From positions 1 through 64,000 of the forward strand of contig SWBL01000014.1 in assembly GCA_024195585.1 (NCBI GenBank): 64,000 nucleotides of DNA, written 5' to 3'. A model generated the notes under the pieces. The model was given only the letters and a program-made list of their open reading frames with translations. It had not been told where the DNA came from and made no database searches. Made by a program: the position numbers and the translations under genes. The DNA is from Aureobasidium sp. EXF-3400 (taxonomy: Eukaryota; Ascomycota; Dothideomycetes; Dothideales; Saccotheciaceae). Shown here piece by piece: positions 48,281 to 55,180 of this stretch (positions are counted from its first letter, which is position 1; the number at the start of each line of letters is the position of its first letter).

Positions 48281-49001
48281 TTTGTTACCATAGTTCTACT
48301 TTACTATTCTTCTCCTTTTCCTGACAGTGGAGTCTCAAACACTCATTTGTATCTAGAGTTATCGTTCGGTGTTAGGCAGAACTTGGCTCGGGCAGTCAGC
48401 AATCGAGTATCATGATGCACATCTCAAAATCCATCTCTCATTAGCACAACAAGCACCGAATTTCTCGTGCCCTGTGCAATGTCCCGTTTGGCACATCTCA
48501 AAGCCTTGGCGCTAGATGGATAGGCAACTGGCGGAAGCTTGTTTTTGCTTGTCTCCTCTTCCGGCTCCTCCGGATACCATTGAATGAGTATGGTAGGCAC
48601 GTAGAAGCAATGGATAACTCGTAGTGGATCATTGCGAAATGCTTCCAGCTCTTATTTAATGGGTGATATTGTATGTCTCTTATCTCCATAGTATTTAGGC
48701 CCGGACCAAGAAATCAAATGAATGTTTCTCCACGAAATCTCAAACACCAGTGACAGATTCAACCTTTTTGACGTCACTGTTCCGCGGTCCTTAAACTGCC
48801 CGAACAACTCAATTAATTGTGGCAGTGTTACACACAGGTAGCAGATCGAAATGGCATATCTCTCTTCACGCTTCTCACCTCCATCATCTTTTTGTGAACA
48901 CTTGCGTTCGCGGACCGGATCTACGCTTCCCTACACGTGCTCTCTCAACCCTGGTGAAACTTTCTAGAATACCGGTCAACGCGCCATAAGGATTGGTTCG
49001 G
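48281..49001. other. intergenic
   Basis: 3' flank of the four-TM gene and promoter of the PAF-acetylhydrolase-like gene. No other gene seen. Confidence 0.5.
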
Positions 49002-51070
49002 ATGTCTCTCCCACCATGGATCTCTGGAAGCAAGAGCAAAACATCTGCTCCTAGTCATGGTTTCCTCTCCGGTGGAGGCAAGGTCCGGAATCCGAAGAAG
49101 CCCAAGGCGCGTCCTCCCAAGTCTTTGCGAGAGACTGTGCTCCTGCCGGTGAGATCGTTGCCAGCATATTCCGGACCTTATTCTGTAGGAACCATGGAGA
49201 TTGAAGTGCCCGTCGAAGAACCTCGGACGTTTACCAATATCACGCGGAAAGGGAATCATGTACTGCAATTGAAGACTGTGCTGTTGACGATATACTATCC
49301 GGCTTCTCCGCCGCAGAAGAAACGTCCGTCTCGACAATTATGGCTGGGTCGACCTCGTTTCAGTATGGCGGCTGGTTATGGACAATTCTCGACAGTTGGG
49401 CCTTTGGGAATACCGGTCTTTTTGCCTACGATGTTTACAAAGCTTCCGGCATTCCGAAATGCTCCACTCTCGAATCAGTTTCCTCCAGACACAGACCATG
49501 GAGACGAGGATCAGAAATCTGGCGAGAGTACGGAGGAAGAGGAGAAAGATGAGACAGACAGATCTACGGACGCGCCACCGAAATTTCCTCTTATGATCTT
49601 TAGTCACGGATTAGGCGGTACCAAGACTGCTTACTCGAGTGTTTGCGGTGAGGTATGTTATCGATTGTTCTCCGCGAGGAGGCATCCTACTAATCTCTTA
49701 CAGTTTGCGAGTTACGGATTCGTTGTCATCGCCGTCGAACACCGAGACGGCAGTGGACCTCGAAGTTTCATCAATCAGCCTGGAAGTGGTGAGGTCGAAT
49801 TCGACAAGGCCGGTGAAAAGCGAGAACCAAAGAAATTTCACAAAAAGCATGGTGATACGCACTACGATGTGGTTGTAAGTGTCAATATGTAAGAGATCGT
49901 AACTTGCAACCCTGCTAACACATCAGCAGGACTATCTCTTTCCGAAAGGTTCGCTACGCTAGGCTCTAGATGTTTAGACACAAGTACTGACAGTAATAGA
50001 CAACCCTTGGGACACAAGTCCGAACAACGACAAAGGAGTTGATCAGGAACTCAGAGGAGGGCAGCTGGACCTGCGCGTAGCAGAGATCGAAGAAGCTTAC
50101 AAGCTCATTAACATCATCAACTCGGGCAAGGGTGAAGAGATCGCCGCGAAGAACATGCGACAGAAGGGCTACAAAGCCTCCAGTACTCATGGTCTTGAAG
50201 GAATCGACTGGACGACCTGGAAGGACAGAGTAGACACCGAATACGTCGTTGCTGCTGGACACTCCTTCGGCGCGGCTACTGTCGTGGATATGCTAAGGCA
50301 CGAGAAACGATTCAAGTGGGTAGCGCAAGGCATCATCTACGACATATGGGGGTAAGTCGAGCATATTTCCGGTCACTCTACCGACACTAACCTTTTCTCA
50401 CAGAAGTGGAACGCGGCCGACAGCCGATGAAGAAGAGAAAATCCAGGCTCCACTTCTCGCCATTAACTCGGAAGCTTTCACATACTGGCCATCTAATTTC
50501 GACCTCGTGTCAAATCTGGTAGACGAAGCCCATCCATGTCCAGCGTGGCTCATGACAGTCCGTGGCACGATACACGTCTCACAATCCGACTTTTCATTAT
50601 TATACCCCAACGTCTGCTCACTCTTCTTGAAAGCAAGCGCCAATCCCGAACGAGCTCTGGACATCAACGTCAATGCATCACTAGAGTTTCTACAGATGGT
50701 GATGCCGACAATACCCTACCGCATCAAAAAGGCATTTCCCAACGAAGAGTTGTTACAAACACAGACGCACCACCTTGAAGATATTCCCCAGATTGATATG
50801 CACAAACCAAAAGACGAAAAGTGGATGGCGGCAAGGTTACGCATCCCACACGAATTTACCTGGCGTGTAGCTCCTGGGTTGGCAAGAAAGTTGGCGCGGA
50901 AGAAGATTACTGAGGGAGGTGGCTCGCCAGATGACGAGATCTGGTTGCACTGCAAACCGGTGGAAGGGACGGTTGATAAGTACAACAGTACGGTGGACAG
51001 GAGGAAGGCAAAGGATCCCAAGGATTCCAAGGTAGCACCTGGATGTGTGGGTCCGAACAAAGATGCATAA
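49002..51070 (+). CDS. PAF-acetylhydrolase-family phospholipase (619 aa)
   Basis: Five exons: 49002-49652, 49704-49874, 49930-49948 (19 nt), 50000-50351 and 50404-51070; phases give 619 residues. The family hydrolyses sn-2 acetyl or oxidised acyl chains of phospholipids. Blocks are SGPYSVGTMEIEVP, FPLMIFSHGLGGTKTAYSS, FASYGFVVIAVEHRDGSGP, a micro-exon DYLFPK, DNPWD, and the nucleophile elbow AAGHSFGAATVVDML; later come SEAFTYWP and RGTIHVSQSDFSLLYPN, which holds the His of the triad. The N-terminus is basic (KVRNPKKPKARPPK) without a signal peptide, suggesting an intracellular enzyme. An acidic Glu/Asp insert sits before the first conserved block. An in-frame upstream start would be TTG, so the ATG at 49002 is used. 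The acceptor cagcag at 49924-49929 could add one Gln. Confidence 0.88.
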
Positions 51071-51322
51071 ATTGGTGTTCAAGGGATGGAGTAGTTGGTG
51101 TTGATGTCTAACGTACTTGATGATATTTTTGCTTGTCGGCGAGAAATGTATAGCCCACGTTTCTATTCATATCTTATGACCGTATTCCAGATCTTTAACA
51201 CGGTATTTGAGCAATTGTTTCGCCACACTTGCGACCAGAACACTGTTGATGCCCGCGTTGTCGTTTGTGACAACATGTGGATGGTATATATAAGATTCAA
51301 CTTCAATTTTGCCCATCACAAA
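51071..51322. other. 3' flank, upstream of initiator tRNA
   Basis: 252 bases with no gene. A tatataa-like tract (ggtatatataagattc, about 51283-51298) lies 25-40 bases before the tRNA, as is common upstream of fungal tRNA genes. Confidence 0.5.
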
Positions 51323-51447
51323 AGCTGAGTGGCGCAGCGGAAGGTTCGTAACATTCAAACACCTCTTCTCCTGAGCTCATAACTAACTCCCTACAGCGCG
51401 CCGGGCTCATAACCCGGAGGACCTCGGATCGAAACCGAGCTTAGCTA
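51323..51447 (+). tRNA. initiator tRNA-Met (CAT) split by a 53-nt insert in the D-arm
   Basis: Joining 51323-51343 to 51397-51447 gives a 72-nt cloverleaf. The acceptor is AGCTGAG/CTTAGCT (one wobble), the D-stem GCGC/GCGC, the anticodon stem CCGGG/CCCGG with loop CTCATAA (anticodon CAT), and the T-arm CTCGG-ATCGAAA-CCGAG. The A1-T72 pair, the GGG/CCC next to the anticodon loop and the A54/A60 T-loop mark a eukaryotic initiator tRNA, and it aligns base for base with yeast initiator tRNA outside the stems. The A and B boxes are intact. The insert falls between D-stem positions 22 and 23, not at the canonical 37/38 intron site, and starts GT and ends AG. T-runs follow directly. Confidence 0.9.
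51344..51396 (+). other. spliceosomal-intron-like insert in the initiator tRNA gene
   Basis: 53 nt in the context AAG|GTTCGT ... AACTAACTCCCTACAG|CGC, with a CTAAC branch-like site about ten bases from the CAG acceptor. Size and signals match the protein-gene introns in this window (the PAF-AH-like gene uses a GTTCGC donor). The boundary has a one-base ambiguity because a G flanks both sides. The insert holds the 9-mer gctcataac, also present in the anticodon arm. Confidence 0.7.
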
Positions 51448-51449
51448 TC

Positions 51450-51460
51450 TTTTTCTTTTT
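51450..51460 (+). terminator. Pol III terminator of initiator tRNA
   Basis: TTTTTCTTTTT beginning three bases after the discriminator A. Confidence 0.8.
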
Positions 51461-51536
51461 GTCCTTGTATAAGAGAGGCAGAGGAGTCACCTTTTTGTTC
51501 TATACACATAGAGCGCGTATGTAATTTACCAGACAA

Positions 51537-51585
51537 AACTCCAACAGTTTGAGGGTCATGGATCGAGTCCCAGCTAGCTCTTTTT
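51537..51585 (+). pseudogene. degenerate 3' fragment copy of the split initiator tRNA
   Basis: The sequence runs aactcc-aacag, then gggtcat, ggatcga, cc, agc, tagct and cttttt. The same words appear in the same order from the 3' end of the tRNA insert through the terminator at 51385-51454. It looks like a tandem duplicate with an internal deletion. Confidence 0.5.
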
Positions 51586-53444
51586 GCTAAGAGAGACTTG
51601 ACTCATCTTTTTTCAGATCTTGATGCTGAGATTTTTTTGTTGTGGATTTCCTCCTTGGGACAAGCGTCTAAACCGGAGTCATCTCCGTTCTACGCTTTGG
51701 CTTTTGATTGATGCTCCTCGTCCTTGTACTCTACACGTAACTAAGTATCGTTGTTTCGATCTGGAAAGTCCCAAACAACGTGAGAGAAGAGATTCTGAAT
51801 CGTAACTTGGGTTTTGGTAGTTCGATCTGGATAGGCTTGTGTTCGAACGACTCTGGTCCCGGTTGCATCATTCGAGCGCATACCTGTTCCTGTTTGGGAT
51901 CACTTCGTGTGCAGCTTATGGGAGCTTCAGACTAGGCTTAACAAACAGACAGATCTCTCAATAGATCTACCGAGTATGCGAACAGACTGGTGTAGCATCA
52001 CACTTGCCATGTTGTTTGGATATTTTGCCAGGACAGGGTCATACCTTAAGCCACACCTTCGAAGGTCAACATGGGCGATAGCAGCTTCAAAGCTCATCAA
52101 TGTCAATCAGTGCATTTTTCTGGACCTCCTGAGGTCGACTTTCCTTGCCTGTAGGATGATACATATCGAAAAAGTGCTCTTGACGCCATCGCATACGAAC
52201 AATATATTGACCGATGCGAAATGTGTAGCACCCACAACTCAATCACATCCTCAATAGCTCAGAGTTCTGCCATCGAAGTGCGTAATATCGTTAGACCCAC
52301 AAGATGTCTAGGAATACACCAAAGGTTCATTCATAGTGAGTGATTGATTGCCCGACTTCACCAGACCCAAGTAAGAATAAAGGGAATGAAGATCAAGATA
52401 CTAGCTCGGGGCATATTTGTAGGGCAACAAGGCAGTGAGACGAGCGAGAATGAACGTGCTGGAATGTTCGAGGCAGAAGCAAGTTTTGGAGAATCGAGCA
52501 AGATGCGATCCAGGTGAGAGGTGTGATCTCGCGTCGAGTTCCGTACCATTACTTTTCCAGCTCATACCTGAGATTGGGGAGGTCTAATGTAAAGGACAGT
52601 TTCACACTGTTGAGTACTGGCTCGCTTTCCAGATATGTACCAGTTATGACACTCCAGGCGAGTAAGTCTAGCGTTCCAATGACGAGGTCCAGGTCAACAG
52701 CCGACTTGGTACGAGTAGCAGAATGCCGTGAAATCCTCGAGCAAGTCTTGCAGAGACAAAGGAAGAGAGATCGTCGCGACTGTAGCGACGCATCCTACTC
52801 CTTGGAACAGGTGGCTGTTGTTTGTTCCGGCAGACTAAGAGTCTTGGTCGAAACCGCACAAGATGACCTCGTGAGCATTTCCCAAGTCTCCATTAGTCAA
52901 GGAAATGGCTAGGAAGGGCAAGTGCTGGCCGAGGCCCTACCTTCCACACGAAGGACCAAGGCGAGTGATCGACTAATGGATATCTATACCACGCCTGCTT
53001 CGGTCATCGTATATGTCACAACTCTATGAGTAAGAATGACCGACTTTCGAGAGTTGCAAGAAGGTAAGAAGCCTCGTCCGTAATCGCAGTGCTATTCAGA
53101 TCCGCAATCGGCGTCTGGCGCGGTAGAGCAGATAAACAGGTATTATGACAAACCGATTGGCCCCCGGATTTCGGATGCTCGTCTGCTCCTGCGCTTAGCG
53201 GTCACTTCCATCTTCAACTCCCCTAAGCACAGGTATAGCCGCAACCATTTTTCTTAGCTGGCGAACACGTTTCCCACTACAAATTCCTTCATTTCTCAGC
53301 CTTTCGACTCTTCTCCTTTCCTCATCTTTCCTAAAAACACAACTTTCCCGGCATCCTTTGCTGTATCTGTTCACGTTCTATATTCCTAAGACCCTGTCTG
53401 CCCCGCGATAACAACCCCACTATCAACAATTAATTTACCCAAAC
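51586..53444. other. 1.9-kb gene-poor region, OAT promoter side
   Basis: No supported gene. The C/T-rich leader of the OAT gene occupies about 53280-53444. Confidence 0.5.
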
Positions 53445-55180
53445 ATGGCACCCATCGCCATCCACAGTTCGCCAAAGGACTCGCTGAACGCCGAGGCTGA
53501 GTCGTTCAAGCCTGTCGGTAACAAGCAGGTTGATCCTTACCACTCGGCGACTTCTGCCACTGCTATCGCTGCGGAATCCGCATACGCTGCACACAACTAC
53601 CACCCTCTGCCGGTGGTCTTCTCGAGAGCACAGGGTGTAGACGTGTGGGACCCAGAAGGTATGTCTTATGCAAGCGATGAGGTGGGGATCACAATACTCC
53701 AATGCGTGGTCCTGGTTGGACTTTGTTCGAGTCCGCAAGAGTTGCCTGTACTGCGCTTCCTGCGAACTTGGGCCTCGTTCGACCAGATTGGTGCATTGCG
53801 AGACGAACCATCAGCTGAGAAAGTTACGCACAAGGAGAGATGCTAACAGCGCACAGGAAACCACTACCTCGATTTCCTCTCAGCATACAGCGCCGTGAAT
53901 CAAGGCCACTGCCACCCCGAACTCGTCAAGGCTCTAGTTGCCCAGGCCTCGAGACTGACGCTCAGCTCTCGCGCATTCTACAATGATGTCTTCCCTCGCT
54001 TTGCTGAGAAGGTCACTTCAATGTTGGGTTTCGAGATGGTCCTGCCCATGAACACTGGTGCTGAGGCTGTAGAGACCGCTGTCAAGATTGCGCGCAAGTG
54101 GGGATACAAGGTCAAGGGCATTCCTGAGAACAAGGCCTGGGTCTTCTCCGCACAGGAGAACTTCCACGGCAGAACAGTAAGCACACCACAGCAGCATACG
54201 GTCGTCCTTGTCTGCGGGCTAACCCACATCGCAGTTCGCTGCCATCACCATGTCCACCGACCCTGAGTCCAGAGACAACTACGGTCCTTACCTGCCCAAC
54301 ATTGGCTCCTCGAACCCTACCAATGACGAGCCTATCCGCTACAACAACGTAAGCGATCTCGAGAAGGTTCTTGAGGAGCACGGCGAGAACACTGCTGCTT
54401 TCTTGGTCGAGCCCATCCAGGGTGAAGCAGGTATTGTCGTACCAGACGAGGACTATCTCGTGAAGGTACGCGAGTTGTGTGACAAGCACAACGTCCTCCT
54501 GATCTGTGACGAGATCCAAACCGGCATTGCCCGTACTGGTAAGATGCTCTGCCACGAGTGGAGTGGCATCAAGCCCGACCTTGTCCTCCTCGGCAAGGCT
54601 ATCAGTGGTGGTATGTACCCTGTCTCTGCTGTTCTCGGCAAGAAGGAGATCATGATGACCATCGAGCCTGGTACTCACGGTAGTACTTACGGTGGTAACC
54701 CTCTTGGTTCCGCTATTGCTATCAGAGCGCTTGAGATTATTGAGGAGGAGAACATGGTTCAGCAGGCTCAAGTCCTTGGTGAGATGTTCAGACAAGGTCT
54801 TCGCGACATCCAGGCCAAGAACTCGATGATCTCGTTGATCCGTGGTAAGGGTTTGCTCAACGCCATCATCATTGACGAGAGCAAGACCAACGGCCACAGC
54901 GCATGGGATCTTTGCATGTTGATGAAGGAGAAGGGTCTCTTGGTAAGAAAAGCTTCGCCAACGTTGATGAAACTCAAGGCTAACGTTATTGCAGGCCAAG
55001 CCCACTCACCAGAACATCATCCGTCTGGCACCACCTCTCGTGATCTCCAAGGAGCAAATCGAGACTTCGCTCAAGATCATTGCAGAGGCAGTCGACGAGT
55101 TGCCCAACCTGAAGGGCGAAAAAGAGGAGAAGGTGCTGCCTCCCGGCGAGAAGAACGTGCATATTGGCGTCGACAACTGA
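53445..55180 (+). CDS. car2: ornithine aminotransferase (Car2-type, 475 aa)
   Basis: Exons 53445-53658, 53857-54176, 54235-54942 and 54995-55180 give 475 residues. OAT is a PLP enzyme that transfers the delta-amino group of ornithine to 2-oxoglutarate, the second step of arginine catabolism, cytosolic in fungi. Blocks are [115 protein letters not shown] (PLP lysine) and [15 protein letters not shown]. There is no presequence, which fits a cytosolic form. Intron 1 (198 nt) is unusually long for this window. The first exon's tail ([20 protein letters not shown]) is a family-variable region. Confidence 0.96.

Follow-up and report, generated by a model that had tools for sequence, protein, structure and literature searches.

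Most initiator tRNA genes of a fungal genome carry a probable spliceosomal intron in the D-arm

The window, the 64,000-nucleotide stretch of DNA analyzed here, contains an initiator tRNA-Met gene whose D-arm is interrupted by 53 nt, and we consider it very probable that this insert is a U2-type spliceosomal (mRNA-type) intron within a functional gene. We favor a spliceosomal intron because its signals have been kept amid drift, its length and branch spacing are those of mRNA introns, it forms no bulge–helix–bulge, and the U6 genes of the same genome offer a parallel. The signals and their persistence within diverged surroundings are read from sequence, as are the family of ten genes to which the window gene belongs and the U6 parallel; from these we infer transcription, splicing, and the splicing machine. 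The parts of the gene and its surroundings are as follows.

51285 to 51293, forward strand: TATA element TATATATAA, starting 38 nt upstream of the gene.
51323 to 51343, forward strand: exon 1 of the initiator tRNA-Met (tRNA positions 1 to 22), with the A box; identical in 10 of 10 genes.
51344 to 51396, forward strand: putative intron of 53 nt, GTTCGTAAC...ACTAAC...CAG, assigned from sequence signals.
51344 to 51351, forward strand: putative 5′ splice site GTTCGTAA, unchanged among all eight copies; taken together with three bases of the exon, it can form 8 of 11 pairs with the 5′ end of U1.
51382 to 51387, forward strand: putative branch site, ACTAAC (all eight copies read ACTRAC here), whose branch A stands 10 nt from the end of the intron.
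51394 to 51396, forward strand: putative 3′ splice site CAG, present in 8 of 8 copies.
51397 to 51447, forward strand: exon 2 of the initiator tRNA-Met (tRNA positions 23 to 73), with anticodon CAT, a GGG/CCC anticodon stem, and an A54/A60 T-loop with the B box.
51450 to 51454, forward strand: run of five T, the likely Pol III terminator.

Joined, the exons give a 72-nt sequence that is identical at 72 of 72 positions (100%) to an uninterrupted gene in another part of the assembly (L009, on contig C233). Because of this identity, the flanks do make up a real initiator tRNA, as the first-pass annotation had proposed. The joined exons carry A1-U72, the GGG/CCC anticodon stem, A54, and A60, which we take to be the hallmarks of eukaryotic initiator tRNAs. 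Intact L009 scores 61.8 bits as a tRNA. The 53-nt insert, at 51344 to 51396, interrupts the tRNA between positions 22 and 23, where it had originally been placed. A repeated G at the junction makes 21/22 indistinguishable from 22/23 by sequence, and the latter is preferred since it fits an AG/GT...AG/ arrangement. About 100 nt downstream of the gene, a stretch at 51551 to 51580 resembles the 3′ third of an initiator tRNA followed by a T-run; we rejected it as a relic, its score of 25 falling below the 29 that marks the 99% level for random window stretches. Elsewhere in the window, an N-myristoyltransferase ORF shows 87% identity, at full coverage, to proteins of Aureobasidium melanogenum and Aureobasidium sp., and a further database entry matches 86% of the ORF with 92% identity.

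We searched the assembly (53.4 Mb in 717 contigs) with the joined tRNA and found ten initiator tRNA genes, two of them intact (L009 and L010) and eight interrupted (L011 to L018, the window gene being L013). The insert site is identical in all eight interrupted genes, and every insert starts with GTTCGTAA and ends with ACTRAC-N6-CAG; the recurrence of an insert at one place in 8 of 10 genes is far beyond chance. An exact search with the 5′-half pattern, by which diverged copies could be missed, returned 11 sites, namely the ten initiator genes and one unrelated sequence, and no further initiator gene was present among the 19 sites read of 77 with one mismatch to this pattern. A run of at least four T, a Pol III termination signal, begins 2 to 7 nt past the gene end in all ten genes. 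TATA followed by A or T occurs within 60 nt upstream in seven of them (L009, L012, and L018 are without it). The first-pass annotation had considered the case that the window gene is the only initiator gene, with splicing then essential; the count of ten genes, two of them intact, overturns this. All initiator tRNA could come from the two intact genes, so there is no ground for calling splicing essential, and it may be dispensable.

Comparison of flanks grouped the genes into homeolog pairs: L009/L010 (the intact genes), L012/L016, L013/L015, and L017/L018. The pairing of L011 with L014 is weak (72% over 207 bases), and L014 also has some flank in common with L016. The neighborhoods of the initiator genes and the searched parts of the window (49000 to 53800) are present twice, with 72 to 86% DNA identity, as would be expected of an Aureobasidium-like genome of hybrid or duplicated origin; alternatively, the assembly may mix two species. 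That three clear homeolog pairs are interrupted suggests that the interrupted state is older than the split of the two gene sets. The exons of the ten genes differ at one T-stem pair only, C51-G63 in four and T51-A63 in six, a compensatory change; L018 also differs by a second insert of 7 nt. The T-stem pair divides the genes almost by gene set, intact and interrupted alike, and this distribution suggests gene conversion among exons that spared the intron interiors. The second insert of L018 (contig C17, 78578 to 78637), CACAGTA in the anticodon loop, is readable as a canonical intron at 37/38, and its G three from the end can pair with C32, presumably in keeping with the rule for canonical introns. 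Either the tRNA from L018 would need two splicing machines or this copy can be read as decaying.

The introns themselves have drifted almost everywhere except at their signals. Interior identity is 0.88 for L011/L014 and 0.74, 0.67, and 0.67 for the other three interrupted homeolog pairs, with shuffled means of 0.77 (L011/L014), 0.72, 0.71, and 0.73; all four stay within their own 95% shuffle levels, and the pairing of L011 with L014 is itself weakly supported. Across all 28 intron pairs, one (L012/L014) lies clearly above the 95% shuffle level and one equals it. On these short stretches, the interiors are close to random. Three islands are kept in all eight copies: GTTCGTAA at +1 to +8, ACTRAC at −15 to −10, and the CAG end. 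The spacer between branch site and CAG is constant in length and variable in sequence, and all eight introns have their branch A 10 nt from the end. The branch site reads CTGAC in one copy and CTAAC in the rest. In shuffled sequences, CTRAC arises by chance at 7 to 14 nt from the end at a frequency of 0.027 to 0.044 for any single copy.

These features match those of mRNA-type introns in the same genome. As a reference, we used the pattern GTAAGT-N20-45-CTRAC-N3-10-CAG, which has 1721 genome matches. Because the reversed control gives 226, the majority of the 1721 should be real introns, and we took as a sample 93 of the first 100 matches listed in contig order. The tRNA introns measure 52 to 56 nt, compared with a median of 53 nt and a range of 39 to 67 nt (bounded by the pattern itself) in the sample. 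The branch A stands at 10 nt in all eight tRNA introns, and this distance is also the mode of the sample (30 of 93, within the 7 to 14 nt allowed by the pattern). Branch forms in the sample are CTGAC in 51 and CTAAC in 42, and the CTGAC variant among the tRNA introns is thus the other common form. The first-pass annotation had pointed to GT...CTAAC...CAG signals and an mRNA-intron size in the window gene, and both recur throughout the eight copies. Two compositional differences accompany these likenesses: interiors contain 3.9% G in the tRNA introns (from +12) versus 19.6% in the 93 (from +7; Mann–Whitney P = 2.5e-6), and TTTT occurs in 0 of 8 tRNA introns versus 22 of 93 mRNA-type introns. 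Low G and the lack of TTTT would suit a Pol III transcript that avoids early termination and misfolding, though the absence of TTTT may be due to chance with so few introns.

The weak point of the spliceosomal assignment is the 5′ splice site. GTTCGT with a proper branch site has 252 genome matches, the tRNA introns included, compared with 448 for a reversed pattern (a differently composed hexamer) and 216 for a scrambled branch site. Since this count is lower than the first control and little above the second, mRNA-type introns rarely begin with GTTCGT. A local hexamer test over 193,655 bases (43 sequences, too small a set) gave 11 GTTCGT matches, 10 of which were the tRNA genes themselves, some double-counted through overlapping loci. 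Against the 5′ end of U1, AAG/GTTCGTAA can form 8 of 11 pairs, as many as the U6 intron forms when G-U is counted. We rejected a variant U1 matching GTTCGTAA, since all six U1 loci found have the usual 5′ end, ATACTTACCTTG; each of these loci scores below the Rfam cut-off for U1. Conservation of the intron's 5′ end extends to +8 and beyond, more than a splice site should need. By eye, GGTTCGTAAC in the intron start resembles T-loop/B-box sequence, and the intron start GGTTCGTAACA (51343 to 51354 in the window; the same place in L011 to L018) has 8 of 11 letters in common with the gene's own GGATCGAAACC.

The initiator tRNA seems not to be the only Pol III RNA to be spliced in this genome. Both U6 genes found (L071 and L072, each at 1380 to 1720, from contigs C230 and C246, respectively) are interrupted after GGATG by an insert with GTGAGT...CTAAC...CAG. 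The U6 exon stretches that flank the intron are nearly identical between the copies, and the introns have diverged outside the signals and a B-box-like start. Rfam scores the two genes at 53.5 (L071) and 48.8 (L072) bits, with a cut-off of 44 and the intron not shown in the matches. Because both U6 genes have an mRNA-type intron, which is presumably spliced, a Pol III transcript of this kind would not be foreign to the cell. The U6 introns start with the B-box-like GAGTTCGA(T/A)CC. Schizosaccharomyces U6 introns reportedly contain a B-box match as well, to go by the title of a published work. To look for similar introns in other tRNAs, we searched for a CTAAC-type intron located 5′ of a B box of the form GGTTCRA, which covers neither CTGAC branch sites nor divergent B boxes. 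Of the 16 matches, 6 were tRNA-Glu genes lacking an interruption, and in the other 10 ARAGORN finds no tRNA. One match of that search (L075) looks by eye like an opposite-strand T-arm. Among 1936 tRNA candidates of the assembly, 63 scored hits were listed.

Taken together, the conservation in eight copies, the drift elsewhere, the branch spacing, and the U6 intron support the spliceosomal reading first proposed from the window gene, and the rarity of GTTCGT stands against it. Of the other explanations, the first is that the insert is never removed and forms a tolerated expansion of the D-loop, with an RNA of about 125 nt that works, or half-works, as a tRNA. The last base of the intron, a G, lets the D-stem pair across the insert; the interiors hold 3.9% G; and four of the eight unspliced precursors (those of L012, L015, L016, and L017 but not the window copy) are predicted to fold into a complete cloverleaf whose D-loop contains the insert. 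However, the other four precursors, including that of the window copy, are without a predicted D-stem, as are intact L009 and L010, so the prediction is a weak one. Moreover, the conserved islands coincide exactly with the positions of the splice sites and branch site and are spaced as in mRNA introns, and an unconstrained loop would have no use for ACTRAC set at a constant distance from its end. We judge retention to be very unlikely.

Excision by Sen, or by another tRNA-type enzyme, at this noncanonical site, in the manner of tRNAs from archaea, red algae, and nucleomorphs, seems very improbable. The insert is at 22/23 and not at the Sen-type position 37/38. The central helix of a bulge–helix–bulge would make 1 of 4 pairs, in either register and in all eight copies, which bears out the earlier view that the site is unsuited to Sen, and excision of this type would leave ACTRAC unexplained. 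In the cited part of PMC4090602, Sen54 is reported to bind the D-arm, which is interrupted here, yet the same source provides for noncanonical tRNA introns, position 22/23 in archaea among them. Three tRNA genes of this genome (L054, L066, and L067) have extra, differing anticodon-loop sequence (ARAGORN: tRNA-???) and look by eye like tRNA-Trp (CCA) with canonical-looking introns, which suggests that the ordinary Sen pathway is in use in this fungus.

It is just as improbable that the interrupted genes are pseudogenes and that the two intact genes do all the work. An intact gene elsewhere, which the first-pass annotation had named among the signs of a pseudogene, was indeed found (L009 and L010), and L018 carries its second insert; insertions in the D- or T-arm of eukaryotic tRNA genes are also supposed to mark pseudogenes in the cited part of PMC4090602. 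The exons of the eight copies nevertheless make that outcome unlikely: all exon bases are retained, bar the compensatory pair, together with the T-run, while introns and flanks have diverged, and random decay would strike exons too. Gene conversion from intact copies could maintain the likeness of the exons and perhaps reach the first bases of the intron. It could not maintain an internal branch site between diverged stretches and cannot account for the kept branch sites because the intact copies have none. A self-splicing intron was dismissed, 53 nt being too short for one.

With a spliceosomal intron as the preferred reading, maturation would proceed as follows. Pol III would transcribe the gene from its A and B boxes, helped in most copies by an upstream TATA element, to the T-run; the intron, G-poor and free of TTTT, should neither stop Pol III nor much disturb folding of the tRNA. 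U1 would then pair with AAG/GTTCGTA and U2 with the ACTRAC branch site, and the spliceosome would excise a lariat of 52 to 56 nt, so that G22 and C23 are joined and the D-stem is re-formed. Once its ends were processed and its bases modified, the RNA would be an initiator tRNA identical in sequence to the product of the intact copies; in L018, the second insert must also be removed. In a wider version, which we hold tentatively and rate as somewhat less than an even chance, spliceosomal splicing is a nuclear tRNA maturation route in this fungus: most initiator genes would pass through the spliceosome, tying the capacity for translation initiation to splicing; L018 would need both the spliceosome and Sen; and, to judge by the U6 introns, GTTCGTAA may have a second task, for example that of a promoter element resembling a B box.

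In the general view, the Sen/ligase pathway removes the introns of nuclear tRNAs, and spliceosomal introns are confined to transcripts of Pol II, apart from U6, the known Pol III exception. If the present assignment is correct, a tRNA that needs the spliceosome would join the Sen/ligase and spliceosomal pathways, the spliceosome would be capable of handling a Pol III transcript that is short, tightly folded, and without a cap, and the supply of the tRNA that starts translation would be linked to splicing capacity. Annotation also has a blind spot for such genes. ARAGORN recognizes 2 of the 10 initiator genes, as does Rfam with the gathering score as threshold, and in each case these are the two intact ones; the window copy reaches 22.7 bits with Rfam, for a cut-off of 29, and its 5′ part is misaligned into the insert. 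Since all eight interrupted genes escaped both of the finders tried, similar genes could sit unnoticed in other genomes. No precedent for a spliceosomal intron in a tRNA gene appeared among the matches listed in the open-licence literature, in agreement with the first-pass annotation, which knew of none. When relatives were sought in viral and prokaryote contigs, 0 of 18 stretches (1 and 17, respectively) had an initiator-like anticodon arm or T-arm within 200 bases.

Several known systems share part of this arrangement. Canonical eukaryotic Sen introns also lie within nuclear tRNA genes but at 37/38; here, the position is 22/23, there is no bulge–helix–bulge, and the signals are spliceosomal, and L018 may hold both kinds. 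Noncanonical tRNA introns are listed in the cited part of PMC4090602 for archaea (22/23 included), Cyanidioschyzon merolae, and nucleomorphs and resemble the present introns in their D-arm position. Unlike them, the archaeal and C. merolae introns are tied to bulge–helix–bulge motifs, in terms of which those of C. merolae are treated in the cited part of PMC3978253, and the tRNA introns of the Guillardia theta nucleomorph are 3 to 24 nt long, with a mode of splicing given as not known; none of the three groups is described as spliceosomal in the cited parts of these two papers. The U2-type mRNA introns of this genome agree with the tRNA introns in length, CTRAC branch site, branch-to-end distance, and CAG end and differ in that the latter have a tRNA host, a 5′ site (GTTCGTAA) that is rare elsewhere in the genome, and a G-poor interior. 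Finally, the U6 snRNA intron, in Schizosaccharomyces pombe as in L071 and L072, is likewise a short GT...CTAAC...AG intron in a structured RNA of Pol III type, with the signals kept and the remainder diverged, although U6 is no tRNA, the 5′ site is of a type typical of mRNA (GTGAGT), and a B-box-like stretch lies within the intron.
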